64,000 bases of DNA from Campylobacter sp. RM12651 (lineage in GTDB: Bacteria > Campylobacterota > Campylobacteria > Campylobacterales > Campylobacteraceae): assembly GCF_022369475.1 (NCBI RefSeq), contig NZ_CP059601.1, positions 59,335-123,334 of the forward strand, read 5' to 3'. Below the pieces are notes generated by a model, which was not told the origin of the DNA, made no database searches, and was given only the letters and a program-made list of their open reading frames with translations. This document shows, one piece after another, positions 7,585 to 54,762 of this stretch (position 1 is its first letter; every line of letters starts with the position of its first letter). The translations under genes were made by a program, and so were the position numbers.

Positions 7585-7610
7585 AAACGCTTAAAAATTT
7601 CCTTTATATT
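7585..7610 (+). promoter_or_regulatory. ACGCTTAAAA array promoter element, copy 1
   Basis: AAACGCTTAAAAATTTCC followed by TTTATATT, 51 nt before the ATG at 7636. First member of the 30-copy family. Confidence 0.75.
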
Positions 7611-7635
7611 TAAAAAAATAATTAAGGAGATTTTG

Positions 7636-8385
7636 ATGGCAAACAGATGTAGAATTTTAATGATTGAGAAAAAAGATGAGGATACTTTAGTTTTAAAAAA
7701 TTTTTACTCTCATTTAGGCGGGAGCAATTATTTTATTGAACCTGCTCTTTTGGTAGCAAAAAATTTAAAATTAGATTTTTATGATTTTTACAAAATGTAT
7801 GAAAAAGCACACGGTAGTGATTTCTATAATGAGTTTAAAACCTCTGCTGTATTTAATCTCGATGAAGTTAGAGAAGAGTATTCGGTGGGTGATAATGGTA
7901 TTTATATAATTAATAAAGAATATGACTTAATATGCAAAATTGATACAAATGATTTAGATGAAATAATTCCTAATGATATTTTTATCAATAATATGAAAAA
8001 TTTCATTAATAGTAATAAAATAAACATAGATATAGAATCTATAAAATTACCCAAAAAAATAAAAAGAGAACAAGCAGAAAAAGTAAAATATGCTACGAAT
8101 GCAATTTTGGAAAAATTAGTGCTTACTGAGCCTGATTTGAAAAAATATATTAAAAGTGCAATTTTGGAAAAATTTAAAAATAAAAATATTCCTTTAGAAT
8201 GCTTAAACCCTATTAGTATAAACAATACTAAATATGATTATAAAAGAATTAAAAAAGATTCATTCTTTTTAGACGTTTTTGAACCTAAATATGTTAATGG
8301 AAGACATTTTACAGATATAAAACACACATATATTGTTTATTATGATTTTATGAATATTTATAATTTACTTAAAATGGTAAGTTAA
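7636..8385 (+). CDS. Unknown 249-aa protein, first gene of the array
   Basis: The start at 7636 was chosen because AAGGAGA lies just before it and the promoter element 51 nt upstream; the frame is open further upstream but without an RBS. The protein has a compact N-terminal region (MANRCRILMIEKKDED) and a middle rich in Lys and Ile. No transmembrane segment or known motif is visible. The length and regular composition look like a functional gene. A strong hairpin follows the stop codon at 8384-8416. Function unknown. Confidence 0.75.
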   Translation: MANRCRILMIEKKDEDTLVLKNFYSHLGGSNYFIEPALLVAKNLKLDFYDFYKMYEKAHGSDFYNEFKTSAVFNLDEVREEYSVGDNGIYIINKEYDLICKIDTNDLDEIIPNDIFINNMKNFINSNKINIDIESIKLPKKIKREQAEKVKYATNAILEKLVLTEPDLKKYIKSAILEKFKNKNIPLECLNPISINNTKYDYKRIKKDSFFLDVFEPKYVNGRHFTDIKHTYIVYYDFMNIYNLLKMVS

Positions 8386-8416
8386 AAATTAGTAGGGTTT
8401 TATCCTACTAATTTTT
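8384..8416 (+). terminator. Perfect 13-bp hairpin after the 7636 gene
   Basis: Arms AAAAATTAGTAGG and CCTACTAATTTTT with a 7-nt loop; the right arm ends in a T-run, as in a Rho-independent terminator. The next promoter element starts 9 nt later. Confidence 0.8.
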
Positions 8417-8425
8417 AAAAAACAA

Positions 8426-8451
8426 AAACGCTTAAAAATTTTTTTTATATT
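8426..8451 (+). promoter_or_regulatory. Array promoter element, copy 2
   Basis: AAACGCTTAAAAATTTTTTT then TATATT, 54 nt before the ATG at 8480. Confidence 0.8.
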
Positions 8452-8479
8452 AATTCAAAATTATTTAAGGAAGTAAAAA

Positions 8480-9232
8480 ATGATTAAAAGTAGATTTAAT
8501 ACATTGGTTATGAAAAAAGAAATTGATAAGTATGATAAGAATTTATTTTTAGATATAACTTTAAAAACTCCATTAAATGTAGATGAAGTTTTAAAAATTG
8601 CTAAAACGATAGGTTTTAACTTTCAAGAATTTCATTGTATGGAACAAATATGCGAAATAGTAACTTATTTTCGTGTTGAAACCACATCAAAAGAAGAAAT
8701 AAAAGAATATTTAAAGCAACTCAAAAAATTTTCAGATAGATTGGATGAAGAGATACACTATTCTTTAATGAGTATATTTTATTGGGATTATTTAGAGGAT
8801 ATATTTGGTAAAGAAATGGGGGATTTACGTAGTAAAATAACAAAATATTTTTTTCATACGCTTTGTAAAGAAGACTTAAAAACTCCCGAAGGTAAATTTT
8901 TAAAAGAAAAGGCAGTAAAAAATGATTTTAATTGGGATAAGACAATTAGGGAATGTTATTCTATATTGCCTGATTTTTCTTGGCAAGAACTATTGAAAAA
9001 AGAAAATTTATTAGTAGATGGAATAAAAGCTAAAGATGATGTTTATCTTTTAGTGGATTGTGAAGAGGCATTAGACGATACCTATATTGAAGAGTATTAT
9101 ATTAACAAACAAGTTGGCAAGGAAATTCAATTTAGAATACAAAAAAAGCTTATTGAGGTATGTCATAAATTAGATATTGAAATAAAAAATTATTTTGATA
9201 AAGAGTGGCTAAGAGAGTATTTATCAGCTTGA
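8480..9232 (+). CDS. Unknown 250-aa protein
   Basis: Start supported by AAGGAAG upstream. The protein is soluble, acidic and helical, with a Cys pair early on (HCMEQICEIV) and a conserved-looking aromatic cluster (FYWDYLEDIF). No family is recognised. It is the first gene after array element 2. The next gene, at 9325, has no element of its own and may share this transcript. Confidence 0.75.
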   Translation: MIKSRFNTLVMKKEIDKYDKNLFLDITLKTPLNVDEVLKIAKTIGFNFQEFHCMEQICEIVTYFRVETTSKEEIKEYLKQLKKFSDRLDEEIHYSLMSIFYWDYLEDIFGKEMGDLRSKITKYFFHTLCKEDLKTPEGKFLKEKAVKNDFNWDKTIRECYSILPDFSWQELLKKENLLVDGIKAKDDVYLLVDCEEALDDTYIEEYYINKQVGKEIQFRIQKKLIEVCHKLDIEIKNYFDKEWLREYLSA

Positions 9233-9247
9233 AAAGGGGAGGATTAT

Positions 9248-9271
9248 ATGCAATATTATTTAAAAAAATAA
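9248..9271 (+). other. Seven-codon micro-ORF with strong RBS
   Basis: GGGGAGG lies 6 nt before ATG, and the reading frame is MQYYLKK then stop. Such short frames with good Shine-Dalgarno sequences recur in this array (9679, 17358, 18175). It may be a leader peptide or the remnant of a deleted gene. Confidence 0.35.
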
Positions 9272-9324
9272 AAAAGAGAGAAATTAAACTGAAAATATCA
9301 AAAACAAAATTTAAGGAGAATTAA

Positions 9325-9675
9325 ATGTTTGATTTATTTATCAAATATCTACAGGATATGAAAGCAGATGAATGGGCAGGTTCAATGCAGGTTGTTTTTG
9401 CAGCGGGTTTTGGAGCGATACCTACTATAATTTTAACTATAATTATAATGGCTTGCATAATAAATACAAACAATATAAAAATACAAGCGATTTCGTTATT
9501 TGGTTTTAGTGCAATTGCTGTTTTAAATATACTCTCTTTTGCAGAATTAATGCACAAAGGTTATGTGTATGATGATTTAATACATTTTTTTAGGTATTTT
9601 TCAGCAATGGGATTGTTTGCAGGTTTAACTATGCTTAATATTGCAAGAATAATTGAAATTAAAAAAAAGAGGTGA
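9325..9675 (+). CDS. Small membrane protein, three predicted helices
   Basis: The 116-aa protein has hydrophobic segments at about residues 24-46, 54-73 and 88-108 and a basic C-terminal end (IEIKKKR). RBS AAGGAG lies before the ATG. There is no array element directly upstream, so it probably belongs to the 8480 unit. The downstream gene also encodes a membrane protein, and the two may work as a pair. No family is recognised. Confidence 0.7.
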   Translation: MFDLFIKYLQDMKADEWAGSMQVVFAAGFGAIPTIILTIIIMACIINTNNIKIQAISLFGFSAIAVLNILSFAELMHKGYVYDDLIHFFRYFSAMGLFAGLTMLNIARIIEIKKKR

Positions 9676-9699
9676 AAGATGAATAGTGTATGAATTTTT

Positions 9700-10236
9700 A
9701 TGGCTGAAAACGTAACCGTTATCTTATTATTATCAATGGTTGTGTTGGGGATGCTTTTGTTCTTCACTGCTGACAAAATGAGGCATATTGGAGATGCAAT
9801 TGTGGTTGCTTTAATTTATGTTTGTATTGTGTTTTTTCTAACTTATGGTTTCGGTTTTTATAATACAATTGAAAGTAAAGTATGTTTTAATGTGCAAACT
9901 GATGAATTAAAACATTACCCTAATACTGATAAATTAGAACAATTAAGTATAAGTGACTTTATTGCAAAAAATGATTATAATTTATCAAGAATTAAAAATA
10001 TTACTTTAGATTTTGCTAAAAAAATAGCCTTAGATTTTGATTCTTTTAAAGATTATTATGAGATTAAAGACCAAAAAAACATAGATTTATTTAAAGACTA
10101 TTATTCTTTTTTACTAACTTCAATGAAGGAGGCAGAAGAAAGACCTAATAATATTAATGATTTTTACATTAAAGAATTTGGACTTATTAGAAAAGGATTT
10201 GATTTGAGAGTTTGTAATTTCAAAAAATCTCGTTGA
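9700..10236 (+). CDS. Membrane-anchored unknown protein
   Basis: The 178-aa protein has two hydrophobic helices (about 5-23 and 32-52), then a soluble charged domain of about 120 residues. This topology puts both ends on the same side of the inner membrane. The ATG at 9700 has no clear RBS of its own. A five-codon micro-ORF with a good RBS (GAGGTG, ATG at 9679, MNSV then stop) ends 6 nt before it, so translation may restart from that frame. Function unknown. Confidence 0.65.
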   Translation: MAENVTVILLLSMVVLGMLLFFTADKMRHIGDAIVVALIYVCIVFFLTYGFGFYNTIESKVCFNVQTDELKHYPNTDKLEQLSISDFIAKNDYNLSRIKNITLDFAKKIALDFDSFKDYYEIKDQKNIDLFKDYYSFLLTSMKEAEERPNNINDFYIKEFGLIRKGFDLRVCNFKKSR

Positions 10237-10299
10237 GGATTTTTTGAAACCTTATTTGAACCAAAACCTTAATTTGCATCATTTTTACAAAACAATATT

Positions 10300-10325
10300 A
10301 AACGCTTAAAAGATTTTTTATTCTT
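10300..10325 (+). promoter_or_regulatory. Array promoter element, copy 3
   Basis: AAACGCTTAAAAGATTTTTT then ATTCTT, 46 nt before the small ORF at 10346. Confidence 0.8.
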
Positions 10326-10345
10326 ATTAAAAAGAAAGGATAAAA

Positions 10346-10471
10346 ATGGACTATAAAGCTTTTTTAGATTTTATAAATAATGATAATAATGTTGATTTTT
10401 TGGTTAATAAAATAATTAATAATAAGCCACAAAATTATATTATTTCAAAATACAATTATATTTATTTTTAA
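10346..10471 (+). CDS. 41-aa small protein
   Basis: Reads MDYKAFLDFINNDNNVDFLV and continues to a stop at 10469. It is supported by an AAAGGA RBS, by the array element at the usual distance, and by a sequence that uses common codons throughout. The 17-bp hairpin at 10472-10514 begins right at its stop codon, which suggests a one-gene transcript. Function unknown. Confidence 0.55.
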   Translation: MDYKAFLDFINNDNNVDFLVNKIINNKPQNYIISKYNYIYF

Positions 10472-10514
10472 TATAATAAGCAATATTAAATTAATAATAA
10501 TATTACTTATTATA
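10472..10514 (+). terminator. AT-only hairpin with 17-nt arms
   Basis: Left arm 10472-10488 (TATAATAAGCAATATTA) and right arm 10498-10514 pair with one mismatch across a 9-nt loop. It could act as a terminator or extrude as a cruciform. Confidence 0.55.
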
Positions 10515-10599
10515 ATATTATTATTAAATATTAAAGGAATAAAATGGAAAAATAGGCAATAGGGATAAAATATGTATTCAAAGGCATATAAATACTTGT

Positions 10600-10851: not shown

Positions 10852-10905
10852 TTGTTTACCATTATCTATATTTTTGCTATAAAAATCATTGGATACTGAA
10901 AATAA

Positions 10906-10931
10906 AAACGCTTAAAAGATTTTTTATCTTT
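10906..10931 (+). promoter_or_regulatory. Array promoter element, copy 4
   Basis: AAACGCTTAAAAGATTTTTT then ATCTTT, 51 nt before the ATG at 10957. Confidence 0.8.
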
Positions 10932-10956
10932 ACTTTAAATCAATTAAGGAGATTAG

Positions 10957-11280: not shown

Positions 11281-11368
11281 CCTTACTTTTCGCTTTTATC
11301 AAATTTTAAATTCTTTTTATTATTTTTACACACCCTTTATTTATCGGTGTGGTCGGTTTTTACCAAGT

Positions 11369-11556
11369 ATTAAAAGGACTTTTTGGGAATATTAAAAGGA
11401 CTTTTTGGGAATATTAAAAGGACTTTTTGGGAATATTAAAAGGACTTTTTGGGAATATTAAAAGGACTTTTTGGGAATATTAAAAGGACTTTTTGGGAAT
11501 ATTAAAAGGACTTTTTGGGAATATTAAAAGGACTTTTTGGGAATATTAAAAGGACT
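11369..11556 (+). repeat. Eight perfect tandem 22-bp iterons plus a partial ninth
   Basis: Unit ATTAAAAGGACTTTTTGGGA followed by AT, repeated without spacers from 11369 to 11544; a 12-bp partial copy ends at 11556. This is the expected binding array for the initiator encoded just downstream. The sequence is unrelated to the origin 1 iterons. Confidence 0.95.
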
Positions 11557-11610: not shown

Positions 11611-12726
11611 ATGTCTAAAGAATTAGTTAAATATCATAATGATTTTAATAAAGTAAAAATACCAAGTTTTACAGCTCAAGAACAAGATATTCTTATGGGA
11701 ATAATTTGTAAAATGAGAGATTTACGAGAGGATGAAGTTATTACATTTTATCCAAATGAATTAAGAAAATTTAGTGATAGAAATAATTCTAATAATGAAT
11801 TATTTGAGGTCATTAGTGTGTTGAGGAACAAATTTTTTAAAGCTGATTTTACAATAATAATTGATTATCCAAAAGAAAATTTAAGAGCATATGAAACAAT
11901 AAATTTATTTAGGCGTTTTACTATTTATGAAAATCAAATTACAAAACAATTAGAAAAAATAGAATTACAAATTGAGAGTAGATTTTCGTATCTATTAAAT
12001 GAACTAATAGGTAATTTTACAAGTTTTGAATTACCTGAATTTTTAGAGTTAAAAAGTAAATATTCTAAGAGCCTTTATAGAATTTTAAAGCAATATAGAA
12101 ATACGGGCAAATGTTTGATTTATAAAAATGATTGGCAAGATTTTTGCGATTTTATGAATATCCCAAAATCTTATTTACAAGCTGATATTGATAAAAAAGT
12201 TTTACAACCTGCTTTTTTGGAACTTGGAAGAGAAACTAATAAAGAGCCTATTTTTAAAAATCTAAGCTATAAAAAAATTAAAGACCCTAAAGGTCGTGGT
12301 AGGGGTGGAAAAGTAATAGGTATTGAATTTTATTTTACAGCACAACAAGAAGTAAAGCAAGAACAAAAACAAGAAACTACTACACAAAGCAACGAAAACA
12401 AAGTAAATAATATCATTAATGATTTAGCAAATAAAGCAAAAGATTTTAATAAACCAGCACAGAAAAAAGAACCACAAATGCTAGAGCAAAGGATAGGATT
12501 TGGTGGTAGGATAGTTACTGATTTAGATGCTTATGTAGATTTGCATTTTAAGTCTTTTAACGAAATATATAAAGCTGATGATACTTGCAAGATTAAAATA
12601 CTAAAACAAAATGATGATGGCACTATATCAATGACAGCACTTAACCAATATACAAATAAAAATTTTTATTTAAATTTTGAGAGTTTTGACAATTTTAAAA
12701 ATTGGTTTAATAAATATAAGCTTTAA
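11611..12726 (+). CDS. Plasmid replication initiator, Rep_3/RepB type (origin 2)
   Basis: The 371-aa protein has the first winged helix around FTAQEQDILMGIICKMRDLR and the second around FTSFELPEFLELKSKYSKSL, followed by YRILKQYRNTGKC. It ends with a Gln-rich linker (about 250-275) and an extra C-terminal domain of about 90 residues, a common feature of Campylobacter RepB-family initiators. The eight tandem iterons directly upstream fit it as their ligand. It lacks the array promoter and is probably self-regulated through the inverted half-iteron. Its presence beside origin 1 makes this a double replicon. Confidence 0.88.
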   Translation: MSKELVKYHNDFNKVKIPSFTAQEQDILMGIICKMRDLREDEVITFYPNELRKFSDRNNSNNELFEVISVLRNKFFKADFTIIIDYPKENLRAYETINLFRRFTIYENQITKQLEKIELQIESRFSYLLNELIGNFTSFELPEFLELKSKYSKSLYRILKQYRNTGKCLIYKNDWQDFCDFMNIPKSYLQADIDKKVLQPAFLELGRETNKEPIFKNLSYKKIKDPKGRGRGGKVIGIEFYFTAQQEVKQEQKQETTTQSNENKVNNIINDLANKAKDFNKPAQKKEPQMLEQRIGFGGRIVTDLDAYVDLHFKSFNEIYKADDTCKIKILKQNDDGTISMTALNQYTNKNFYLNFESFDNFKNWFNKYKL

Positions 12727-12841: not shown

Positions 12842-12867
12842 AAACGCTTAAAAGTTTTTCCTATCTT
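12842..12867 (+). promoter_or_regulatory. Array promoter element, copy 5
   Basis: AAACGCTTAAAAGTTTTTCC then TATCTT, 51 nt before the ATG at 12893. Confidence 0.75.
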
Positions 12868-14113: not shown

Positions 14114-14139
14114 AAACGCTTAAAAGATTTTTTTATATT
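14114..14139 (+). promoter_or_regulatory. Array promoter element, copy 6
   Basis: AAACGCTTAAAAGATTTTTT then TATATT, 52 nt before the ATG at 14166. Confidence 0.85.
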
Positions 14140-17307: not shown

Positions 17308-17333
17308 AAACGCTTAAAAGATTTTTTATATTT
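17308..17333 (+). promoter_or_regulatory. Array promoter element, copy 7
   Basis: AAACGCTTAAAAGATTTTTT then ATATTT. The ATG at the family's usual distance (50 nt) is that of the micro-ORF at 17358, not the gene at 17430. Confidence 0.8.
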
Positions 17334-17429: not shown

Positions 17430-17759
17430 ATGTTTAATTTTTTAGAAAAAATATGGAGTTATGTAGATATAGGTGCAGGTGTTGTTTTTAGTATAATTGC
17501 TTTAAATTTTATTGCTTTTATATTTTTAATGTTTGCCAAAAAACAAAAATATAGTAAAGCTAAACTTACGGACGCTTTATTGGCACTTATTGTCTTTCTA
17601 GTGGTAACAGTGATGGTATTTAATCTTTTTGAAGATGAAAATATAAGAAGTGCGGTAGCAAATATATTTTTTGTTGTGCTAGAGCTGGTGGTTTTTATAC
17701 CAGTTGGAATGTTTTTAAATTTATTTAAAAAACAAAAAAAATTAAATAATAACGAGTGA
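17430..17759 (+). CDS. Small membrane protein, three predicted helices
   Basis: The 109-aa protein has hydrophobic segments at about 13-36, 46-66 and 75-99 and a basic tail (KKQKKLNNNE). RBS AAGGAG. About 70 bp of its 3' end are duplicated at 18226-18296. The next gene encodes another three-helix protein 17 bp downstream, so the pair may form a membrane complex. Holin-like or entry-exclusion-like roles would fit the size but have no direct support. Confidence 0.7.
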   Translation: MFNFLEKIWSYVDIGAGVVFSIIALNFIAFIFLMFAKKQKYSKAKLTDALLALIVFLVVTVMVFNLFEDENIRSAVANIFFVVLELVVFIPVGMFLNLFKKQKKLNNNE

Positions 17760-18945: not shown

Positions 18946-18971
18946 CAACGCTTAAAAACATTTTTATTCTT
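18946..18971 (+). promoter_or_regulatory. Array promoter element, copy 8
   Basis: CAACGCTTAAAAACATTTTT then ATTCTT, 53 nt before the ATG at 18999. Confidence 0.7.
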
Positions 18972-18998: not shown

Positions 18999-20399
18999 AT
19001 GAAATTAAATCTTCAACCAAAAAATAGAGATGAATTAATCTCATTGTTGATTTGTTTAGCAAAAGATTTTAAAAAAAATAATAAACATATCAAGGTAAAA
19101 AACCTCAGCGATATTGATACAAGTTTAGTTACTAATATGAGTTTTTTATTATGCTGTGACTCTTTAAAAGAAATATCAAATGATTTTTTTGATGGAATAG
19201 GAAAGTGGAATACAAGTTTAGTTACTAATATGGGCTTTATGTTTAGTGAATGCCATAATTTCAACCAACCACTTAGTTTTGATACAAGTAATGTTAAAAA
19301 TATGAATGGAATGTTTAGTTTTTGTGAAAACTTTAATCAACCACTTAGTTTTGATACTAAAAATGTAACTGATATGAGTAAAATGTTTAAACATTGCCAT
19401 AACTTCAACCAACCACTTAATTTTGATACTAAAAATGTAACTGATATGAGTAAAATGTTTTTGAGTTGTTATAACTTCAACCAACCACTTAGTTTTAATA
19501 CGAGTAATGTTAAAAATATGCAAGGAATGTTTAGTTTTTGTGAAAACTTTAATCAACCACTTAGTTTTGATACTAAAAATGTAACCGATATGAATGGAAT
19601 GTTTAGTTTTTGTGAAAACTTTAATCAACCACTTAGTTTTGATACATCAAATGTAATCAATATGACGATAATGCTTTCTAATTGCCATAATTTCAATCAA
19701 CCACTTAATTTTAATACGAGTAATGTTAAAAATATGCAAGGAATGTTTAGTTTTTGTGAAAACTTTAATCAACCACTTAGTTTTGATACTAAAAATGTAA
19801 CTGATATGAGTAGTATGTTTACAGGTTGTTATAGCTTCAATCAACCACTTAATTTTAATACGAGTAATGTAATCGATATGAGTAAAATGTTTAAACATTG
19901 CCACAACTTCAATCAACCACTTAATTTTAATACGAGTAATGTTAAAAATACTAGCTATATGTTTTATGAGTGCTACAAATTTAATAAACCACTTAGTTTT
20001 GATACATCAAATGTAATCAATATGAGTTATATGTTTTATCGTTGCGAGAAATTTAATCAACCAATTAATAACTTTAATACAAGTAGTGCTAATTGTATGA
20101 TAAGTTTGTTTGAACATTGTCTTAGTTTTAACCAACCAATTGAGTTGGATTTCAAAAACGTAACTAGAGTTGTAGAAGATTTATTTGCAGATTGTGTTAG
20201 CTTTAATAGTCCTATTATTTTCAAAAATTTACCGCAAGTTTTTATCAATGGAGAATGGGAGATATATAGAATTTTTGATAATTGTAGAGTTTTTGATTTT
20301 GAAAAATTAAATGCCCCTAAAAAATTTAAAGACCGAATTCTAGAAAAATATAAATACCGCAAAAATTCTAGATGTGTTACTATTTTTGGGGGTTTATGA
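18999..20399 (+). CDS. BspA-like leucine-rich-repeat protein (DUF285)
   Basis: The 466-aa protein has a head (about 1-70) ending in IDTSLVTNMSFLL, then about 12 repeats of 24 residues with the DUF285 pattern NFNQPLxFDTxNVxxMxxMF, then a capping region. DUF285/BspA repeats form a curved leucine-rich solenoid and usually mediate binding at the surface of bacteria such as Brachyspira, Treponema, Mycoplasma and some Campylobacterota. Here no signal peptide or lipobox is present, so the protein is probably cytoplasmic or exported in an unusual way. Neighbouring repeats are nearly identical at DNA level, showing recent expansion. A shorter relative is encoded at 38188. Confidence 0.88.
   Translation: MKLNLQPKNRDELISLLICLAKDFKKNNKHIKVKNLSDIDTSLVTNMSFLLCCDSLKEISNDFFDGIGKWNTSLVTNMGFMFSECHNFNQPLSFDTSNVKNMNGMFSFCENFNQPLSFDTKNVTDMSKMFKHCHNFNQPLNFDTKNVTDMSKMFLSCYNFNQPLSFNTSNVKNMQGMFSFCENFNQPLSFDTKNVTDMNGMFSFCENFNQPLSFDTSNVINMTIMLSNCHNFNQPLNFNTSNVKNMQGMFSFCENFNQPLSFDTKNVTDMSSMFTGCYSFNQPLNFNTSNVIDMSKMFKHCHNFNQPLNFNTSNVKNTSYMFYECYKFNKPLSFDTSNVINMSYMFYRCEKFNQPINNFNTSSANCMISLFEHCLSFNQPIELDFKNVTRVVEDLFADCVSFNSPIIFKNLPQVFINGEWEIYRIFDNCRVFDFEKLNAPKKFKDRILEKYKYRKNSRCVTIFGGL
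19255..20130 (+). repeat. About twelve 72-bp coding repeats
   Basis: Each unit encodes FNQPL followed by a Phe-Asp/Asn-Thr and a Met-Phe block. Several units are near-identical over 60 bp or more (for example those around 19310, 19530, 19600 and 19740), so copy number is likely to vary by recombination. Confidence 0.85.
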
Positions 20400-20445: not shown

Positions 20446-20471
20446 AAACGCTTAAAAGACTTTTTTATCCT
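20446..20471 (+). promoter_or_regulatory. Array promoter element, copy 9
   Basis: AAACGCTTAAAAGACTTTTT then TATCCT, 54 nt before the ATG at 20500. Confidence 0.8.
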
Positions 20472-20878: not shown

Positions 20879-20904
20879 AAACGCTTAAAAGACTTTTTTA
20901 CCCT
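20879..20904 (+). promoter_or_regulatory. Array promoter element, copy 10
   Basis: AAACGCTTAAAAGACTTTTT then TACCCT, 54 nt before the ATG at 20933. The spacing helps to decide that start. Confidence 0.8.
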
Positions 20905-22444: not shown

Positions 22445-22470
22445 AAACGCTTAAAAGATTTTTTTATATT
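22445..22470 (+). promoter_or_regulatory. Array promoter element, copy 11
   Basis: AAACGCTTAAAAGATTTTTT then TATATT, 52 nt before the ATG at 22497. The downstream leader to the RBS nearly matches that of copy 6. Confidence 0.85.
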
Positions 22471-24093: not shown

Positions 24094-24119
24094 AAACGCT
24101 TAAAAGATTTTTTTATATT
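24094..24119 (+). promoter_or_regulatory. Array promoter element, copy 12
   Basis: AAACGCTTAAAAGATTTTTT then TATATT; unusually far (69 nt) from the ATG at 24163. Confidence 0.8.
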
Positions 24120-25319: not shown

Positions 25320-25868
25320 ATGCAAAATAGTAAGCCTTTAGGAAAAAGCGACGATTCAAGTAAAGAATTTATTATACGCTGTTTAGGCGGTGATAAAACT
25401 TATGGGTTTGATATAGATAGCGTGTATATATATCAAAACAATATCAATAACAAATATTATATTTTTGAATATTTGAAATGTGATAGCGTTCATGTTACAC
25501 CATACACGTCCGACCCAAGCAAATATCCTTATAATTGGAGAAAGTTCCATTCTTTATTTCAGCTTACAAAAAAGCTAGGTGGGACTTTAATTTTGGTTAA
25601 TTACAGCAATGGTTATGATTCACAAATGAAAGAACTTCCAAATAAAGAAATTTATGAAAACCAGGTTAAAATGTTGTTTGTAAAAGATATTGATTATAAT
25701 GCAATAAAACAATATGAATCAAGCTATCCGAAACCAAAACATTTAAACTATTTAAAATATTCAGATATAAAATTTCTAACACTTGAAGAATTTTCAAACA
25801 TCCTAAGACGAATAAATAATAAATGTGGAAATATTAAAATCAATTTGGATAGGTTAATCAATGAATAG
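25320..25868 (+). CDS. Putative restriction endonuclease partner of the adenine methyltransferase
   Basis: The 182-aa protein overlaps the methyltransferase gene by 8 bp. This gene order and coupling are typical of type II systems. The central segment FDIDSVYIYQNNINNKYYIF followed by EYLKC has an acidic-strand-acidic pattern that could form a PD-(D/E)XK core, but the ExK motif is not clear. The assignment rests mainly on context; it could instead be an unrelated accessory protein. RBS GGGAG. No array promoter is present upstream. Confidence 0.45.
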   Translation: MQNSKPLGKSDDSSKEFIIRCLGGDKTYGFDIDSVYIYQNNINNKYYIFEYLKCDSVHVTPYTSDPSKYPYNWRKFHSLFQLTKKLGGTLILVNYSNGYDSQMKELPNKEIYENQVKMLFVKDIDYNAIKQYESSYPKPKHLNYLKYSDIKFLTLEEFSNILRRINNKCGNIKINLDRLINE

Positions 25869-26787
25869 TTTTATAAACAGTCCTATTCTTTATATGGGAA
25901 ATAAAAATCGTCTGATTCGTCGTGGTTTAATAAATCTGTTTCCAAAAAATATTAATCATTTTATAGATGCCTTTGCTGGAAGTGCAACTGTATCAATGAA
26001 TACTCAAGCAAAAAAATATATAATAAATGATATTGATGAAACCTTGCATTTATACTATCAAATGTTTGCAAAAAACAATGAAAAAACGATAATAGAACAT
26101 ATAGAAAATAGAGTTAAAGAATTTGGATTACCAACTAAAACAACTATTAGATGTTTTAGTGGTAAAGACGAAGTTGAACTTTACAAAAAAGCATATCACA
26201 ACTTTAGAGATTTTTATAATAAAAATAAAAACTCATTAGACCTTTACACGCTTATGTTTTTTGCTTTTTCACAGCAATTTAGAACAAACAAAAAAGGAGA
26301 TTTTAATATGCCGTTCGGAAATAACTGTTTTTCTCCTAAAAACAAAAAGACTATAAGTTTTGGTTGTGAGTTTTTTTCTAAAAATAATCTTTCAATCCAC
26401 AAAAAAGATTTTCAAGACTTAATTTTTAGCGAAACATTAAATAAGGATGATTTTGTATATTTTGATTCTCCTTATTCAATAACTACTGCTACATATAATG
26501 AAAGCTGTAAATGGGATTTTAATGATGATAATAGATTATTTATGGTTTGCAAGGAATTAGATAGAAATAATATAAAGTTTGGAATGAGCAATGTGATTAT
26601 AAATAAAGGTATAGAAAATAAAAACTTAATTGATTTTTGTTCTAAGAATAATTTCAAGGTATATAGTCCTAATAATTTTCAATATCATGCTTGTGGTAAG
26701 GAAAACAACAAACAACAAGAGGTATATATTTGCAATTACGAAATAAAAAATAATAACCACAATTTTAATTGTAGTGAATTAATTTAA
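25861..26787 (+). CDS. DNA adenine N6-methyltransferase, D12 class (Dam-like)
   Basis: The 308-aa enzyme would transfer a methyl group from S-adenosylmethionine to adenine in a short DNA site. It shows the N-terminal D12 motif (PILYMGNKNRLI), the AdoMet loop FIDAFAGSATVS (about 34-45) and the catalytic DSPY (202-205, a variant of DPPY). The length fits the Dam/DpnM class. Paired with the upstream gene it may be a restriction-modification system; alone it could protect the element from host restriction. The recognition site cannot be read from the sequence. Confidence 0.88.
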   Translation: MNSFINSPILYMGNKNRLIRRGLINLFPKNINHFIDAFAGSATVSMNTQAKKYIINDIDETLHLYYQMFAKNNEKTIIEHIENRVKEFGLPTKTTIRCFSGKDEVELYKKAYHNFRDFYNKNKNSLDLYTLMFFAFSQQFRTNKKGDFNMPFGNNCFSPKNKKTISFGCEFFSKNNLSIHKKDFQDLIFSETLNKDDFVYFDSPYSITTATYNESCKWDFNDDNRLFMVCKELDRNNIKFGMSNVIINKGIENKNLIDFCSKNNFKVYSPNNFQYHACGKENNKQQEVYICNYEIKNNNHNFNCSELI

Positions 26788-26847: not shown

Positions 26848-26873
26848 TAACGCTTAAAAGATTTTATTATTTT
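26848..26873 (+). promoter_or_regulatory. Array promoter element, copy 13
   Basis: TAACGCTTAAAAGATTTTAT then TATTTT, 58 nt before the ATG at 26906. Confidence 0.7.
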
Positions 26874-28514: not shown

Positions 28515-28540
28515 AAACGCTTAAAAGATTTTTTTATCCT
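28515..28540 (+). promoter_or_regulatory. Array promoter element, copy 14
   Basis: AAACGCTTAAAAGATTTTTT then TATCCT, 52 nt before the ATG at 28567. Confidence 0.85.
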
Positions 28541-30751: not shown

Positions 30752-30777
30752 AAACGCTTAAAAACTTTCTTATCTTT
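30752..30777 (+). promoter_or_regulatory. Array promoter element, copy 15
   Basis: AAACGCTTAAAAACTTTCTT then ATCTTT, 56 nt before the ATG at 30808. Confidence 0.75.
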
Positions 30778-31063: not shown

Positions 31064-31089
31064 AAACGCTTAAAAGATTTTTTATATTA
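31064..31089 (+). promoter_or_regulatory. Array promoter element, copy 16
   Basis: AAACGCTTAAAAGATTTTTT then ATATTA, 51 nt before the ATG at 31115. Confidence 0.85.
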
Positions 31090-31825: not shown

Positions 31826-31851
31826 GAACGCTTAAAAGATTTTTTTATCCT
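31826..31851 (+). promoter_or_regulatory. Array promoter element, copy 17
   Basis: GAACGCTTAAAAGATTTTTT then TATCCT, 55 nt before the ATG at 31881. Its leader is identical to that of copy 18. Confidence 0.85.
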
Positions 31852-32138: not shown

Positions 32139-32164
32139 AAACGCTTAAAAGATTTTTTTATCCT
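32139..32164 (+). promoter_or_regulatory. Array promoter element, copy 18
   Basis: AAACGCTTAAAAGATTTTTT then TATCCT, 55 nt before the ATG at 32194. From AACGC to the ATG the sequence is identical to copy 17. Confidence 0.85.
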
Positions 32165-33550: not shown

Positions 33551-33576
33551 AAACGCTTAAAAGATTTTTTTATATT
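33551..33576 (+). promoter_or_regulatory. Array promoter element, copy 19
   Basis: AAACGCTTAAAAGATTTTTT then TATATT, 55 nt before the ATG at 33606. Confidence 0.85.
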
Positions 33577-37633: not shown

Positions 37634-37659
37634 AAACGCTTAAAAGTTTATTTATTCTA
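37634..37659 (+). promoter_or_regulatory. Array promoter element, copy 20
   Basis: AAACGCTTAAAAGTTTATTT then ATTCTA, 51 nt before the ATG at 37685. Confidence 0.75.
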
Positions 37660-38145: not shown

Positions 38146-38171
38146 AAACGCTTAGAAAAGGTATTATTTTA
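38146..38171 (+). promoter_or_regulatory. Array promoter element, copy 21 (divergent)
   Basis: AAACGCTTAGAAAAGGTATT then ATTTTA; the T-tract is replaced. It is 42 nt before the ATG at 38188. Confidence 0.6.
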
Positions 38172-38187: not shown

Positions 38188-38985
38188 ATGAAAGAATTAA
38201 ATTTAAAGCCAAAAACAAGACATGAGCTAACAGAATTACTGAAGGTTTTAGATAAAGAATTTACAAAAAATAGAAAATTTGTTTTGATAACAGATTTGAG
38301 CGAAATAGATACAAGTCTTATCACAGATATGTCATATCTATTTTTTGGTGATATATACAATATGCCATTACAAGGAGTAGAACAATGGAATACTAGCAGT
38401 GTAGTCAATATGAAATATATGTTTGCTGGATGTAAAGTATTTAATCAGCCGTTAAATTTTGATACTAGCAAAGTAACTACAATGGAAGGTATGTTTATGA
38501 ACTGCTATAATTTTAATCAACCTTTGAATTTTGATACATCAAATGTAAAAGATATGAACTATATGTTTAGTGGGTGTGAAAATTTTAATCAATGTTTAAA
38601 TTTTGATACTAGCAAAGTAACTACAATGATAGAAATGTTTAAAGATTGTAAAAATTTAGAAGCTTCTTTGGTATTTGATGCCAAAGAATTAATCAATGCT
38701 AATTATATGTTTAGGGGTTGTCGAGTAATAAAAAAGGTTAATTTTTTAAATTTAAGTCCTTTTTGCAATTTAAATGGAATTTATTTAGACACCATCTTTA
38801 TAAATATTCACAATAACAATTTTGAAATAGATAGAAAATTAAAAGAACTTTATCTAAGAAAGGGTTTTGTTTTCAAAGATGAGTATGAAGAGTTAGAGAA
38901 AAAATACGAAAAACTAAAAAATAAAGTCTTTGATTTAGAAGAGAAGTTTAAGTATATTGAAAATTATCTTGCTGAAATGTCATAG
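38188..38985 (+). CDS. BspA-like leucine-rich-repeat protein (DUF285), short form
   Basis: The 265-aa protein shares the head of the 18999 protein (LNLKPKTRHELTELLKVLDK, ending IDTSLITDMSYLF), then has about four DUF285 repeats (FNQPLNFDTSKVTTMEGMF type), a degenerate repeat region and a C-terminal coiled coil (about 225-262). There is no signal peptide. The coiled coil suggests an oligomer with the repeats as a binding surface. RBS AAAGGAG. Confidence 0.85.
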   Translation: MKELNLKPKTRHELTELLKVLDKEFTKNRKFVLITDLSEIDTSLITDMSYLFFGDIYNMPLQGVEQWNTSSVVNMKYMFAGCKVFNQPLNFDTSKVTTMEGMFMNCYNFNQPLNFDTSNVKDMNYMFSGCENFNQCLNFDTSKVTTMIEMFKDCKNLEASLVFDAKELINANYMFRGCRVIKKVNFLNLSPFCNLNGIYLDTIFINIHNNNFEIDRKLKELYLRKGFVFKDEYEELEKKYEKLKNKVFDLEEKFKYIENYLAEMS

Positions 38986-39124: not shown

Positions 39125-39150
39125 AAACGCTTAAAAATTTTTTTATTCTT
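39125..39150 (+). promoter_or_regulatory. Array promoter element, copy 22
   Basis: AAACGCTTAAAAATTTTTTT then ATTCTT, 49 nt before the ATG at 39174. Confidence 0.8.
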
Positions 39151-39740: not shown

Positions 39741-39766
39741 AAACGCTTAAAAGATTTTTTTATTGT
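39741..39766 (+). promoter_or_regulatory. Array promoter element, copy 23
   Basis: AAACGCTTAAAAGATTTTTT then TATTGT, 54 nt before the ATG at 39795. Confidence 0.8.
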
Positions 39767-40742: not shown

Positions 40743-40768
40743 AAACGCTTAAAAGTTTTTATAGTTTT
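40743..40768 (+). promoter_or_regulatory. Array promoter element, copy 24
   Basis: AAACGCTTAAAAGTTTTTAT then AGTTTT, 43 nt before the ATG at 40786. It probably drives the five genes to the DNase at 44496. Confidence 0.7.
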
Positions 40769-43833: not shown

Positions 43834-44496
43834 ATGAAACAAAAGTTATCAGCTATATTATTAACATTAAGTTTAAATGCAAGTAACTATGCACATTATG
43901 AGCCAAGTAAAATGGCTCAAAAGTTTTTTAATAATTGTGATGTGGTTTTAGATAAGTTTTATTATCAAAATTGTTATGACTACTCTAAAAAATCAAGTTT
44001 AGCAGTTGCATATAAACTTGATAAAAATATGCTTGAGGCAGGACATATTAAAAATCGTCCTAAATTTGAGCCTGATTATAAATTAGCTAAAAAATATCGC
44101 ACTGATTGGAATGATTATCTTCATTCGGGCTATGATAGAGGGCATATTCTATCAAATCAATCAATGAATGCTACAACAGATGCTCAAAGAAGCACCTTTT
44201 TAATGAGTAATATTGCACCTCAAACGCCAGAATTAAATCGCAATGTTTGGCTGAAAGCTGAAAAGCGTGAAAGACAAGTTGCTTTAGCTAAAGGTTGGGC
44301 TGAAGTAATTAATTTGATAGAATTTGATGAAAATAATAAAAGATATATCAAAAATGGAATTAGAGTGCCTAATTATTTCGTAAAAATTATTCTAAGTGAT
44401 AATTTTCAAGAATGTTTTAGAATGCCTAATATTGAAATGTTTGAAAATGATAAGTTGAAAACTTATCGTGTTGACTGTGGGGAATTTAATGGTTAA
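43834..44496 (+). CDS. dns: Secreted DNA/RNA non-specific endonuclease (Dns-like)
   Basis: The 220-aa protein starts with a signal peptide (about 1-20, cleavage near SNYA/HYEP). The start at 43834 follows AGGAGG; an upstream in-frame ATG has no RBS and would bury the signal. It carries the beta-beta-alpha metal motif SGYDRGH (catalytic His104), then RSTFLMSNIAPQ and the metal-binding Asn135 in ELNRNVW. The closest relatives I know are the Dns nucleases of C. jejuni integrated elements CJIE1, CJIE2 and CJIE4, shown to degrade DNA outside the cytoplasm and to suppress natural transformation. Here it would limit uptake of competing DNA. Confidence 0.9.
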   Translation: MKQKLSAILLTLSLNASNYAHYEPSKMAQKFFNNCDVVLDKFYYQNCYDYSKKSSLAVAYKLDKNMLEAGHIKNRPKFEPDYKLAKKYRTDWNDYLHSGYDRGHILSNQSMNATTDAQRSTFLMSNIAPQTPELNRNVWLKAEKRERQVALAKGWAEVINLIEFDENNKRYIKNGIRVPNYFVKIILSDNFQECFRMPNIEMFENDKLKTYRVDCGEFNG

Positions 44497-44543: not shown

Positions 44544-44569
44544 AAACGCTTAAAAGTTTCATTAATTTC
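44544..44569 (+). promoter_or_regulatory. Array promoter element, copy 25
   Basis: AAACGCTTAAAAGTTTCATT then AATTTC, 47 nt before the ATG at 44591. Confidence 0.7.
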
Positions 44570-51756: not shown

Positions 51757-51785
51757 AGGTAGAATTGTAAATAAATTTAACAAAC

Positions 51786-51811
51786 AAACGCTTAAAAGTT
51801 TTTTTATATTT
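51786..51811 (+). promoter_or_regulatory. Array promoter element, copy 26
   Basis: AAACGCTTAAAAGTTTTTTT then ATATTT, 53 nt before the ATG at 51839. Confidence 0.8.
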
Positions 51812-51838
51812 GCTAAAATTATTATTAGGAGAAAACAT

Positions 51839-52378
51839 ATGAAACATATATTTTTAGACGAAGAGGAAACCTTAAAACTCTTTATAGAGTTTATAAATAA
51901 TAAAGACAAGAATGAGGTTTTTTGCGGTTTCAAAGAATACATTAAAGATATAGTCAACTTTTATAAAATTAGTTTAAAAGAATTAAGGATTTTATATGGT
52001 TTAGGTAATAAAAAATTAGAGATAGAGTTTCTTTCAAAATATTTAAAAGAATATTATAAAATAAATTTGGAAGATATGGAAAAAAATAAAAGTGTTAATA
52101 AGATATTTAAAAAATATATAAATATTTTAAATGACTACATATTGGAAATTGATTTTTTTATCAATAATTTAAAAAAAATATCGGTAAAAAATTGGATAGA
52201 ATTTTTAAAATGGGGGTATCATTATGGCGAACTAGATACAGTTATAGAACTAATGCTTAATAACACAAGTATTAATAAAATAAAGAAGCTTGAAAAAAAG
52301 TTAGAAATAACAATTATAGCAAGAGATTTTAGAGATATTTATAATGATATATATCTTTTAAGTGAAAGTGATAGCTAA
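51839..52378 (+). CDS. Unknown 179-aa protein
   Basis: Start placed after TAGGAG; the upstream open frame crosses the array element and is not coding. The helical protein has an Asp/Glu-rich N-terminus. The next gene begins directly after the stop codon. Function unknown. Confidence 0.65.
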   Translation: MKHIFLDEEETLKLFIEFINNKDKNEVFCGFKEYIKDIVNFYKISLKELRILYGLGNKKLEIEFLSKYLKEYYKINLEDMEKNKSVNKIFKKYINILNDYILEIDFFINNLKKISVKNWIEFLKWGYHYGELDTVIELMLNNTSINKIKKLEKKLEITIIARDFRDIYNDIYLLSESDS

Positions 52379-52573
52379 ATGAATAATAAAGTATTGATAA
52401 TAAAAGAACCCTTTGCTTTAGGCTATACTTTACCATTAAGTATAGCTAATGTTTTGGTTTATGAATATGAGGTTAATTTAAGACCACATAATAAGTTTAA
52501 ACAAGATTTGAAGTTAAAAAAATTAAAACTAGAGTATAAAAATGGAGAACTTTTTTTATATAAAATTATTTAA
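52379..52573 (+). CDS. 64-aa unknown protein
   Basis: The ATG follows the preceding stop codon with no gap (TAAATG), so it depends on coupled translation. The small basic protein has a hydrophobic N-terminal third. Function unknown. Confidence 0.5.
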   Translation: MNNKVLIIKEPFALGYTLPLSIANVLVYEYEVNLRPHNKFKQDLKLKKLKLEYKNGELFLYKII

Positions 52574-52592
52574 TCCTACACAACAGCAATTA

Positions 52593-52618
52593 AAACGCTT
52601 AAAAGATTTTTTTACCTT
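52593..52618 (+). promoter_or_regulatory. Array promoter element, copy 27
   Basis: AAACGCTTAAAAGATTTTTT then TACCTT, 67 nt before the ssb start. The longer leader contains TATAATAAAA. Confidence 0.8.
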
Positions 52619-52659
52619 TATTAAAATATTTTATAATAAAAATAATTAAGGAGATAGAA

Positions 52660-53040
52660 ATGAATGTTTGTAATTTTACAGGTAGGTTGGTGAATGAGGT
52701 AATGTTACATACCAAAGGGCAAACAATGTGGATAAATAATACATTGGCAATATATAATCGAAAAAAAGTAGATGAAAGGTGGGAAGAGGATACTATTTTT
52801 ATAGAATTTTCTGCATTTGGAAAAAATGCAGAAATGATTAATAAATATACAAGAAAAGGTGATAGAATTTCATTAATAGGGAAAATTACACAAGAAAGAT
52901 GGGTTGATAAAAATAATAATAATAGAACTCAACTAAAATTATTGGTTGAAAAAATTTATCTAATTGATTATATAAAACCTGATACAAATAAAAATAGTAT
53001 TGAAAACATAAACGATGAAGATAGTGAAATTCCATTTTAA
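52660..53040 (+). CDS. ssb: Single-stranded DNA-binding protein
   Basis: The 126-aa protein has an OB fold typical of bacterial SSB: MNVCNFTGRLVNEV at the start, FIEFSAFGKNAEMINKYTRK (about 48-67), GDRISLIGKI and a C-terminal acidic tip ending EDSEIPF, which binds partner enzymes. It is shorter than host SSB (about 180 aa), with a short linker, as in phage and plasmid SSBs. Conjugative plasmids often carry ssb in the leading region to protect incoming single strands. RBS AAGGAG. Confidence 0.93.
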   Translation: MNVCNFTGRLVNEVMLHTKGQTMWINNTLAIYNRKKVDERWEEDTIFIEFSAFGKNAEMINKYTRKGDRISLIGKITQERWVDKNNNNRTQLKLLVEKIYLIDYIKPDTNKNSIENINDEDSEIPF

Positions 53041-53568
53041 TTAATTTAAATAATAAATTAAATCATTTAAGTTTTGCACCATTCTATTATTTATTATAAT
53101 AAAATGGTGCATAGAGTTTGTTTTAATAGAAATCAAAAGCTTTGGATTAATTTTAAGTAATTCATATCTAATTTTTTCATATAGTTTTTTTCTAGTATTA
53201 AATTGTTCAATGTTAGAAATGTTCAATATTTCTAAAAAATCAAATAAAAATTTTTCATTTAAACTCATATAAAAATCATCATTATAATAATTATGTATTG
53301 TTTTATTGGAAATAAAATTTAATATTTTTTCATTAGGAACTTCTAAAAGTATTTTATTGTTAGTAATATTTATTATATTAAAAATAAAATTAGATGGAAT
53401 TGATAATAAAAAAATTCTATTTTCAATAAATTTATCTTTTTTTACAAATTGACTAGGCATCCAAAAACCTTCATAAGTATTTTTATATTTTGCTAAAAAA
53501 ATTAAAATAGCTTTTTCGGTTTCTTTTAAGATTATAAGTTTTTTTGGCAGTTTAATATCTATAAACAT
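53041..53568 (-). CDS. Unknown 175-aa protein, convergent with ssb
   Basis: I place the start at 53568 (MFIDIKLPKKL) after GTAGGT; an ATG at 53604 has no RBS. The N-terminal 50 residues (LIILKETEKAILIFLAKYKN, then YEGFWMPSQFV) follow a pattern I have seen in small mobile-element proteins where a Lys-Glu-Thr strand leads to a W-x-P-x-S motif. The rest is helical. Its stop abuts the ssb stop. Function unknown. Confidence 0.6.
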   Translation of the reverse strand: MFIDIKLPKKLIILKETEKAILIFLAKYKNTYEGFWMPSQFVKKDKFIENRIFLLSIPSNFIFNIINITNNKILLEVPNEKILNFISNKTIHNYYNDDFYMSLNEKFLFDFLEILNISNIEQFNTRKKLYEKIRYELLKINPKLLISIKTNSMHHFIIINNRMVQNLNDLIYYLN

Positions 53569-53639
53569 ATTTTTACCTACTCTATTTTTTATATATTTTA
53601 ACACAATAAGGTGAATTATCTAATACTTATCTTAAATTA

Positions 53640-53665
53640 AAACGCTTAAAAATAAAAATAATAAT
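53640..53665 (+). promoter_or_regulatory. Array promoter element, copy 28, T-tract lost
   Basis: AAACGCTTAAAAATAAAAAT then AATAAT, 53 nt before the ATG at 53693. Confidence 0.65.
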
Positions 53666-53692
53666 TAATCAAAATAATTAAAAGGAAAAAAA

Positions 53693-53926
53693 ATGAGAGT
53701 AAAAACAACACAAAAAAATCTTAAAGAATTAATAAAAAATAATATAGCAATAGATATTACATCTATAAGAGGTAATGAATTAAATAAAATTGGATTTTTT
53801 AATAGAAATTACTTAGTTAAAAAAATCTCAATAGGTATTTATGGAATTAATGGAGCTTTAATAGAACTTGATAATAAACTTTATGTAATAAGTAAAAGAT
53901 GTAGTAATCTTTTTGCTTTAGTTTAA
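53693..53926 (+). CDS. 77-aa unknown protein
   Basis: Small basic protein with a possible beta-rich second half (YLVKKISIGIYGINGALIEL). RBS AAAAGGAA. A small membrane-protein gene follows after 18 bp. Function unknown. Confidence 0.55.
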   Translation: MRVKTTQKNLKELIKNNIAIDITSIRGNELNKIGFFNRNYLVKKISIGIYGINGALIELDNKLYVISKRCSNLFALV

Positions 53927-53944
53927 AATCAAAAAGGATAAAAA

Positions 53945-54115
53945 ATGAAAAACTTAATAAAAAAAATGGGTCTTAGTTTTATATTAATAGGCTTTATAAT
54001 AAATAATGAAATAGTTTTTTTTACTGCATATGGTAGTTTAGTTTTTTTAATTGGAACTTTTATCTCTGAAAAATTATTACAAAAGATAGTTGATAAAGTA
54101 TATAATTGGTTATAA
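53945..54115 (+). CDS. 56-aa two-helix membrane protein
   Basis: RBS AAAGGATAAAA. It begins MKNLIKKMGLSFILIGFIIN and has a second hydrophobic helix (about 25-40), then a Lys-rich amphipathic end (EKLLQKIVDKVYNWL). Both helices and the RBS support a real gene. It could be a small toxin or membrane regulator; there is no direct evidence. Confidence 0.55.
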   Translation: MKNLIKKMGLSFILIGFIINNEIVFFTAYGSLVFLIGTFISEKLLQKIVDKVYNWL

Positions 54116-54157
54116 CTAATTATATACTTTATATATAAAGTTTTTAATATAAAATTA

Positions 54158-54183
54158 AACGCTTAAAAATTAGAATAATTTTA
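54158..54183 (+). promoter_or_regulatory. Array promoter element, copy 29, T-tract lost
   Basis: AAACGCTTAAAAATTAGAAT then AATTTT, 49 nt before the tdk start. Confidence 0.65.
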
Positions 54184-54206
54184 ATAAAAATAATAAAGGA
54201 AAAAAT

Positions 54207-54716
54207 ATGAAAATAATATTAGGAACAATGAAAAGTGGCAAATCTACTATATTAATTAATGAAATGATTAATGCGTTCAATAGTGGAAATAAATATGTTT
54301 TTATTAGACAAAGTAAAGATAAAAGAGATTTTATAGCAAGAGATATAAATATTGAAATAAAAAAATATAATTTTAAAAGTGAAAAATATTTATTTAATGA
54401 TTTAAAAAATCATATAATTTTTATAGATGAAATTCAATTTTTAAATAAAAATATACTAGATAGAATTATAGAATTATCTATTAATAACAAAATTATAATG
54501 GCAGGTTTATTGAGTTATACTGATACAAATAAAATTTGGGAAAGTGTAGCATATATTTTGCCATATTGTAGAGAAATACAAAAACTAAATGCTTATTGTG
54601 AAAAATGTGGAAAACACAATGCAACGATACAACATTTTCAAGGTGGTAACAAAATTAGCGATAATTACACCGTATATTGCTTAGAATGTTATAACAAGAT
54701 TATCAAACTAAATTAA
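54207..54716 (+). CDS. tdk: Thymidine kinase-like protein, type II
   Basis: The 169-aa protein has the P-loop GTMKSGKS (6-13), the Walker B-like IFIDEIQFL (71-79) and a C-terminal zinc site with two Cys pairs (Cys131/134 and Cys158/161), as in bacterial and phage thymidine kinases. These phosphorylate thymidine to dTMP for DNA synthesis. It is shorter than E. coli Tdk (205 aa) and the substrate lasso region is reduced, so activity should be tested. Phages and large plasmids carry tdk to raise dTTP supply, in line with its neighbours ssb and the exonuclease. RBS AAAGGAAA. Confidence 0.85.
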   Translation: MKIILGTMKSGKSTILINEMINAFNSGNKYVFIRQSKDKRDFIARDINIEIKKYNFKSEKYLFNDLKNHIIFIDEIQFLNKNILDRIIELSINNKIIMAGLLSYTDTNKIWESVAYILPYCREIQKLNAYCEKCGKHNATIQHFQGGNKISDNYTVYCLECYNKIIKLN

Positions 54717-54729
54717 TAGTTTGATAATC
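54698..54729 (+). terminator. Perfect 13-bp hairpin over the tdk stop
   Basis: GATTATCAAACTA pairs with TAGTTTGATAATC across 6 nt; the next element starts 7 nt later. Confidence 0.7.
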
Positions 54730-54736
54730 AAATAAA

Positions 54737-54762
54737 AAACGCTTAAAAAATAAAATCATACT
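54737..54762 (+). promoter_or_regulatory. Array promoter element, copy 30, T-tract lost
   Basis: AAACGCTTAAAAAATAAAAT then CATACT, 52 nt before the ATG at 54789. Last copy of the array. Confidence 0.65.

Follow-up and report, generated by a model that had tools for sequence, protein, structure and literature searches.

In this study, we analyzed a 64,000-nucleotide stretch of Campylobacter sp. RM12651 (the window), corresponding to positions 59335–123334 of a 123,334-bp plasmid-like contig, C2. It carries thirty near-identical promoter-like modules, and we consider it fairly probable (about 0.6) that these are read via a dedicated, probably plasmid-encoded activator and turn on roughly 30 gene units of one arc together. 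Each module consists of a box, ACGCTTAAAA, followed by a T-tract and a TAnnnT hexamer, and all 30 copies are intergenic, on the + strand, and in the same orientation. The genome has 2.19 Mb in three contigs, with a chromosome of 2.06 Mb; half of C2 lies inside the window, and the array was confined to one 47-kb arc with box starts at 7585–54737. From 7.6 to 55 kb, the genes lie mainly on the + strand, and 89% of the arc is coding. Coordinates are window positions unless C2 is named.

Copies of the element and their distribution

A first-pass annotation had reported 30 copies on the + strand, all containing ACGCTTA. Position and strand were confirmed for every copy, and the heptamer was present in 30/30, being shared by selection of the copies. 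ACGCTTAAAA was exact in 29 copies, the one at 38146 having ACGCTTAGAA, and 27 of the 30 begin with AAA. A 31st + strand ACGCTTA (26246), which lies inside the methyltransferase open reading frame (ORF) and lacks the rest of the element, was excluded from every count. On the whole of C2, exact ACGCTTAAAA occurred 29 times on the + strand and 0 times on the − strand, with 0.39 expected per strand; when up to one mismatch was allowed, the window gave 45 matches versus a maximum of 22 over 100 shuffles. The element ranked first in a de novo search for upstream words on C2 (28 upstream regions versus 0.02 expected), and its per-position profile peaked over ACGCTTAAAA(G/A), followed by the T-tract, the TAnnnT, and conserved A residues.

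Occurrence in coding regions or on both strands was not seen: with start codons refined by Shine–Dalgarno (SD) sequences, the box core was clear of coding sequence in 30/30 copies, and the − strand of C2 held none. Box 51786 would fall inside a − strand helicase ORF if a longer, TTG-start reading of that ORF were taken. As previously described, the distance from element start to start codon was 42–58 nt in 28 of the 30 copies, the exceptions being 24094 (69 nt) and 52593 (67 nt). Most start codons were at offset 50–57, so that the leader is about 20 nt long, and it carries an SD of the AAGGAG type. In the 2.06-Mb chromosome, AAACGCTTAAAA was found three times, and a backwards-pattern control occurred three times in the whole genome; none of the three chromosomal sites, inspected by eye, had the full layout of T-tract, TAnnnT, SD, and ATG. 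The element belongs to one arc of the plasmid-like contig and not to the host chromosome.

The boxes mark the heads of gene units. Within the arc, a box was present in 26 of the 35 intergenic gaps of at least 80 nt, in 2 of the 4 gaps of 45–79 nt, and in none of the 20 shorter ones, and two further boxes head a 6-codon ORF (17308) and ORF 51839 (51786). Gene boundaries for the gap and coding-overlap counts were hand-refined from ORF lists. ORFs shorter than 35 codons, ORFs of 35–59 codons without an SD, and + strand ORFs that overlapped any of the − strand genes on a hand-made masking list were removed before these counts, and boxes 17308 and 51786 were thus left without an assigned gap. The leaders of boxes 31826 and 32139 were identical at 38/38 bases and those of 14114 and 22445 at 35/38 bases, with unrelated flanks in both pairs; judging from these sequences, some box promoters have been copied as modules between unrelated flanks.

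No comparable array was detected on the other half of C2, on the chromosome, in 397 further genomes from the order, or on eight related plasmids. The pattern of box, T-tract, and TAnnnT gave 16 matches in this genome and 0 in the 397 others. The 19-base consensus with one mismatch likewise gave 16 matches here, and 11 of 152 other genomes of the family matched, ten of them once. The eleventh, from the same genus, held a one-mismatch variant, AAACTCTTAAAAGATTTTT, at four places on one contig. Exact 17-mer matches in other genomes (90 stretches, 80 of them listed) and in viral contigs (11 stretches) were dismissed as chance, every listed stretch having one match. A DNA similarity search of 24.5 kb of the arc against plasmids gave no match. 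A string search of the literature with ACGCTTAAAA, AACGCTTAAA, and ACGCTTAAAAG did not find a description of the element, and "undescribed" is used here only in that sense. A polymerase chain reaction primer for an integrating conjugative element of Helicobacter pylori contains AAACGCTTAAAAG, probably by chance (PMC4234485).

The eight plasmids comprised seven of the nine Campylobacterota records among 20 listed TraG matches, together with pICON from a search with the Rep protein, and they carried 0–2 occurrences of ACGCTTAAAA each. In the same de novo search, four of them each showed a smaller set of repeated promoter-upstream elements specific to that plasmid: a AAAGTGCAAATTTGCACTTTTTAAG-type element on Helicobacter cinaedi T36_P1 (six copies, all +), a GGTTACAAAATGTAACCTTTTAAG-type element on Campylobacter RM16187 (four copies, all +), an element with CTTAAGTATG on Campylobacter jejuni SCJK2 (eight copies on + and one on −, within longer repeats), and an AT-rich word on pICON of Campylobacter concisus (five on + and two on −) that may represent ordinary −10 sequences. 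Nothing comparable was found by this search on pHELV-1, pCfviMP1, pCCORG, and C. jejuni BCH-10331. Like the present element, those of T36_P1, RM16187, SCJK2, and pICON are plasmid-specific, lie upstream of several genes, and are mostly on one strand; however, they have 4–8 copies, several are palindromic, and their sequence and geometry differ.

Geometry of the promoter-like module

A TAnnnT was located at offset 18–23 in 28 of the 30 sites, compared with 23% of random window positions. For realignment, the −10 offset (20 or 21) was picked for each site by the letters at −12, −11, and −7, which favors the counts at those three positions and not those of the start A residues. After realignment, −12 was T in 28/30, −11 was A in 30/30, and −7 was T in 30/30 sites, and A was found at the predicted start (+1) in 26/30 and at +2 in 27/30. 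The hexamer was mostly TAT-N-Y-T. If this −10 assignment is right, the box lies at about −30 to −20 with its center nearer −25, compared with a box centered near −30 in T4 middle promoters. At −8, a pyrimidine was present in 28/30 sites (P = 8.6e-8 versus window composition; P = 2e-5 versus the 58% pyrimidine at this position among chromosomal upstream TAnnnT words). TTGACA-like −35 matches at the boxes were no better than at random positions. The previous statement that this is not a −35/−10 pair was supported.

The sigma70 promoters of C. jejuni are described as having an extended −10, TGxTATAAT, with periodic A/T-rich upstream DNA (PMC3656092). With TGn and TATAAT in 0/30 sites each and −8 mostly a pyrimidine, the box module differs from the published Campylobacter core promoter; its −10 matches TATAAT at a mean of 4.2 of 6 positions. 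No flanking consensus was seen around 25 TATAAT sites inspected upstream of chromosomal genes. A location of the box inside a 5′ leader was considered and rejected: the 59 nt upstream showed no conserved promoter-like stretch, only box-adjacent A/C-rich bases.

Strong hairpins, for which the threshold was the top 10% among 300 random, mostly coding stretches of the arc, occurred just before 18/30 boxes and downstream of 0/30. At box-preceding gene ends, the 8 nt after the stem contained 1.0 T residues (12 stems, 24 ends), compared with 2.6 at box-less arc ends (5 of 18 ends) and with 3.8 (17 of 30) and 3.6 (26 of 67) at chromosomal ends; the 42 arc gene ends in this count were hand-picked from the gene map. 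The pre-box hairpins are real and lack the U-tract of host gene ends, and a role as ordinary terminators was rejected. Examples of such gene-end hairpins directly before boxes are at 8426, 20446, and 54157.

The predicted activator and alternative explanations

From its binding site, the box AACGCTTAAAAG located around −30 to −20, the activator would recruit host RNA polymerase, acting like MotA in replacing the missing −35 contact, and the −10 would be kept off-consensus so that transcription depends on the box. Since the −12 T, −11 A, and −7 T pattern is kept, we infer that the host sigma70 polymerase is used. A strict box, a weak −10, and an orientation and phase fixed in 30 promoters favor an activator over a repressor: a contact that replaces the −35 would have to keep one orientation and phase to the −10, whereas a repressor operator need not.

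The T4 MotA box, given as (a/t)(a/t)(a/t)TGCTTtA, tolerates changes and is separated by 12 ± 1 bp from a −10 of excellent quality (PMC2988021). T4 middle promoters resemble those of the arc in their nonpalindromic, GCTT-containing box, which here would take the place of a −35, and in their sigma70-type −10, single orientation, and tens of copies. However, with GCTT as the point of alignment the spacing here is 9–10 bp, a rigid box is combined with a weak −10, which reverses the strictness in T4, and the carrier is a plasmid-like contig. Because of this spacing and reversed strictness, the element seems MotA-like in its working and not a member of the MotA class. The likeness to activator-dependent middle promoters drawn by the first-pass annotation therefore stood in outline and not in these details. 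Its reading of a promoter-like element that defines a regulon was supported. Of its two options, a dedicated activator and an unusual mode of polymerase recognition, the activator is favored, and a specialized polymerase is considered less likely.

Several observations weigh against this activator reading. No activator was identified, and many arc ORFs match no family; the MotA family PF09158 had no match in the genome, the controls being silent too. A repressor acting at a fixed place would also yield oriented boxes. In 121 host chromosomal upstream regions, TATTTT occurred 65 times versus 28 for TATAAT, which is not the commonest TAnnnT word, so that the TATAAT preference of the host rests on the C. 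jejuni literature. Nine of the 35 long gaps have no box. At 17430 a box (17308) lies further upstream, 52379 comes after the ORF headed by box 51786, the gap at 26308 is an artefact of the start codon chosen within the methyltransferase ORF, and 11611 is a rep gene; the gaps at 9325, 10669, 18338, 28075, and 49035 have no explanation. Box-less − strand genes break the arc at about 46.6–48.9, 49.6–51.8, and 53.0–53.6 kb. Single-sequence structure models of the box-driven ORFs 22497 and 51839 had a mean predicted local distance difference test score of 51, too poor to use. As to the function proposed below, no ard-type anti-restriction gene was present among the proteins scanned, and "leading region" is a likely label drawn from gene content and layout.

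It is rather unlikely that the box is the operator of a plasmid-encoded repressor that, in the manner of Reg of p576, silences an establishment regulon in the donor but allows its expression once a naive recipient is entered. Regulatory motifs beside the promoters of several establishment operons provide a precedent (PMC8708921), and the related plasmids carry repeated, partly palindromic upstream elements, TATAAT following 6 of the 8 + strand copies on SCJK2; the box, however, is neither palindromic nor a direct repeat. A promoter under repression would be expected to have strong intrinsic activity, whereas the −10 of the boxes is never TATAAT. In IncP-1 plasmids, KorA, KorB, and TrbA are repressors with palindromic operators, and dispersed copies of their sites coordinate many plasmid promoters; the box is likewise dispersed but nonpalindromic and all on one strand. 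We also regard as unlikely a fusion of a conjugative plasmid with a second replicon, represented by the arc. The box would then be the general-purpose promoter of that replicon, unconnected with conjugation and possibly bound by a Rep3-type protein. The arc has its own rep and iterons at 11.4–12.7 kb, and Rep3 genes with different iterons lie at 4475 and 11611, with a weakly similar third ORF at 3432. Iteron 2 and box variants share TTAAAAG(G)ACTTTTT, a similarity reached by 0.3% of shuffled iterons; however, an equal score is reached by 4.6% of random 22-mers of the window, which makes it weak, and no box precedes the rep gene at 11611.

Reading of box and −10 as one promoter by a plasmid-encoded specialized RNA polymerase or sigma-like factor is quite unlikely. 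Ten contiguous, almost invariant bases, the mostly pyrimidine −8, and pre-box hairpins without the U-tract of host gene ends would fit it, but the spacing flexes by 1 bp and −12, −11, and −7 follow the sigma70 pattern. In addition, Sigma70_r2 had no match on C2, both matches of the genome being chromosomal (the family was detected in 10 of 14 control genomes), and the phage-type RNA polymerase family PF00940 had no match, its controls also being silent. Frpo-like single-stranded DNA promoters, active on the incoming strand, are highly improbable here. The arc content and one-strand boxes do resemble leading regions, where such promoters occur (PMC11541004), and from −60 to +50 nt around the element start, folding z-scores were below −2 in 12/30 sites on each strand. 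In Frpo, both the −10 and the −35 are contained in a hairpin, whereas the −5 to +50 nt stretch of the template strand had a mean z of 0.08 with 0/30 below −2, the structure lying upstream of the box.

Gene content of the arc and its possible role

Under the activator reading, the regulon would be the establishment (leading-region) set of the plasmid, expressed early in a new host; this is the less certain part of the proposal. Such a role is likely in view of the clustering, a single-strand DNA-binding protein (SSB), an orphan methyltransferase, and many ORFs without family matches. Establishment regulons are described as clustered operons of variable genes with one common upstream sequence (PMC8708921), and leading regions as carrying anti-defense genes, methyltransferases, and SSBs on one strand (PMC11541004). 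The arc agrees with these descriptions in part and likewise has a shared sequence upstream of several clustered operons. Its cargo, mostly on one strand, includes the SSB, a D12 methyltransferase, nucleases, and many ORFs without family matches; these ORFs may have an anti-defense role. In the pLS20 family, the EGeRS1 and EGeRS2 sequences also lie right upstream of clustered variable-gene operons, with five EGeRS1 on pLS20 and four EGeRS2 on p576 versus the 30 short boxes here (PMC8708921). The arc boxes have neither the dual TTATCCC motif of that family nor its long GC-rich structured element.

The Pfam scan comprised 53 queries (one gene twice), with 118 ORFs listed on C2, and NCBIfam, PHROGs, and PADLOC were also used. 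Of ten arc ORFs (nine on +, one on −) compared with Pfam, eight had no match and two had weak matches below the cut-off. The relatives of ORF 12893 were itself and two proteins, and those of ORF 33606 were two proteins, on short contigs of one and the same metagenome-type source, with scoring limited to the best-sharing ~8,000 candidates. The 705-aa ORF and a 2221-aa ORF had no plasmid match, the 603-aa protein and an 808-aa protein had matches in no genome but their own when 153 of the family were compared, and no viral locus was confirmed for two arc proteins. The box-driven gene at 18999–20399 encodes a BspA-like repeat protein with a DUF285 match, and the one at 38188–38985 a BspA-like repeat protein as judged by eye.

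The region listed last in Table 1 is, as a guess from position and structure, a candidate origin of transfer (oriT). Its inverted repeat has 12-bp arms (55143–55154 and 55165–55176), the two adjoining GC-rich palindromes are perfect and 24 and 28 bp long, and the palindromes at about 55.2 kb are the most GC-rich spot and form the strongest 50-nt fold on C2. A TraG/TraD-type coupling protein gene (Pfam) and further transfer-like genes, picked by eye, lie on the half of C2 outside the window; one relaxase candidate, also picked by eye, matched nothing of note. All 20 listed best plasmid matches of the Rep protein were from Campylobacter, and among those listed, the nine best matches of the TraG-like protein were eight from Campylobacter and one from Helicobacter. 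Two different 22-bp iteron sets (5728–6390 and 11368–11556) adjoin different Rep3 genes, and this arrangement suggests a fused multi-replicon plasmid. In a 3767-aa ORF on the − strand (C2 33673–44976), a domain of the family A DNA polymerases lies near residue 3000, and a separate 736-aa family A polymerase is encoded at C2 1–2211. Scans of the window for tRNAs and Rfam families gave no matches.

Table 1. Positions of the box promoters and of associated features in the window
Feature	Position	Strand	Basis
Box promoter 1, first of the array	7585..7610	+	
Box promoter 2	8426..8451	+	
Box promoter 3; 41-codon ORF next	10300..10325	+	
Box promoter 4	10906..10931	+	
Box promoter 5	12842..12867	+	
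Box promoter 6; leader almost the same as that of 22445	14114..14139	+	
Box promoter 7; 6-codon ORF next, 109-aa gene at 17430	17308..17333	+	
Box promoter 8, upstream of DUF285 repeat protein	18946..18971	+	Pfam
Box promoter 9	20446..20471	+	
Box promoter 10; near-duplicate of 20446 including upstream hairpin	20879..20904	+	
Box promoter 11	22445..22470	+	
Box promoter 12; D12 adenine methyltransferase (25861) possibly in unit	24094..24119	+	
Box promoter 13; RNase_T-like exonuclease (27409) in unit	26848..26873	+	
Box promoter 14	28515..28540	+	
Box promoter 15	30752..30777	+	
Box promoter 16	31064..31089	+	
Box promoter 17; leader identical to that of 32139	31826..31851	+	
Box promoter 18	32139..32164	+	
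Box promoter 19; 603-aa and 705-aa ORFs downstream, without family matches	33551..33576	+	
Box promoter 20	37634..37659	+	
Box promoter 21, ACGCTTAGAA variant	38146..38171	+	
Box promoter 22	39125..39150	+	
Box promoter 23	39741..39766	+	
Box promoter 24; close-set genes continue to Endonuclease_NS gene at 43834	40743..40768	+	
Box promoter 25	44544..44569	+	
Box promoter 26, upstream of 179-aa ORF at 51839	51786..51811	+	
Box promoter 27, upstream of SSB gene	52593..52618	+	
Box promoter 28; TAnnnT absent, AATAAT at the −10 place	53640..53665	+	
Box promoter 29, upstream of thymidine kinase	54157..54182	+	
Box promoter 30, last; TAnnnT absent, CATACT at the −10 place	54737..54762	+	
SSB gene, behind box 27	52660..53040	+	Pfam SSB 2.6e-15
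D12 N6-adenine methyltransferase (orphan: no partner nuclease seen)	25861..26787	+	Pfam, PADLOC
oriT candidate, just past the last box gene: inverted repeat and two GC-rich palindromes	55143..55258	no strand	

A wider proposal, which we hold only tentatively, is that the plasmid runs a phage-style program in which host RNA polymerase is commandeered by a plasmid factor that, through some 30 boxes, turns on a 47-kb establishment block in each new host. This would be sigma appropriation outside phages or would involve a new polymerase partner. As far as sequence indicates, the set of boxes belongs with plasmid promoter regulons, as a variant whose layout is MotA-like. The results suggest a search rule, namely to look for strand-biased repeated upstream elements, which gave smaller sets on four of eight campylobacter and helicobacter plasmids. 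If the activator reading is true, one rigid promoter module coordinates dozens of genes on a bacterial plasmid. The box would then give a handle on cargo without recognizable families, marking genes that are needed together, plausibly for surviving entry into a new cell.

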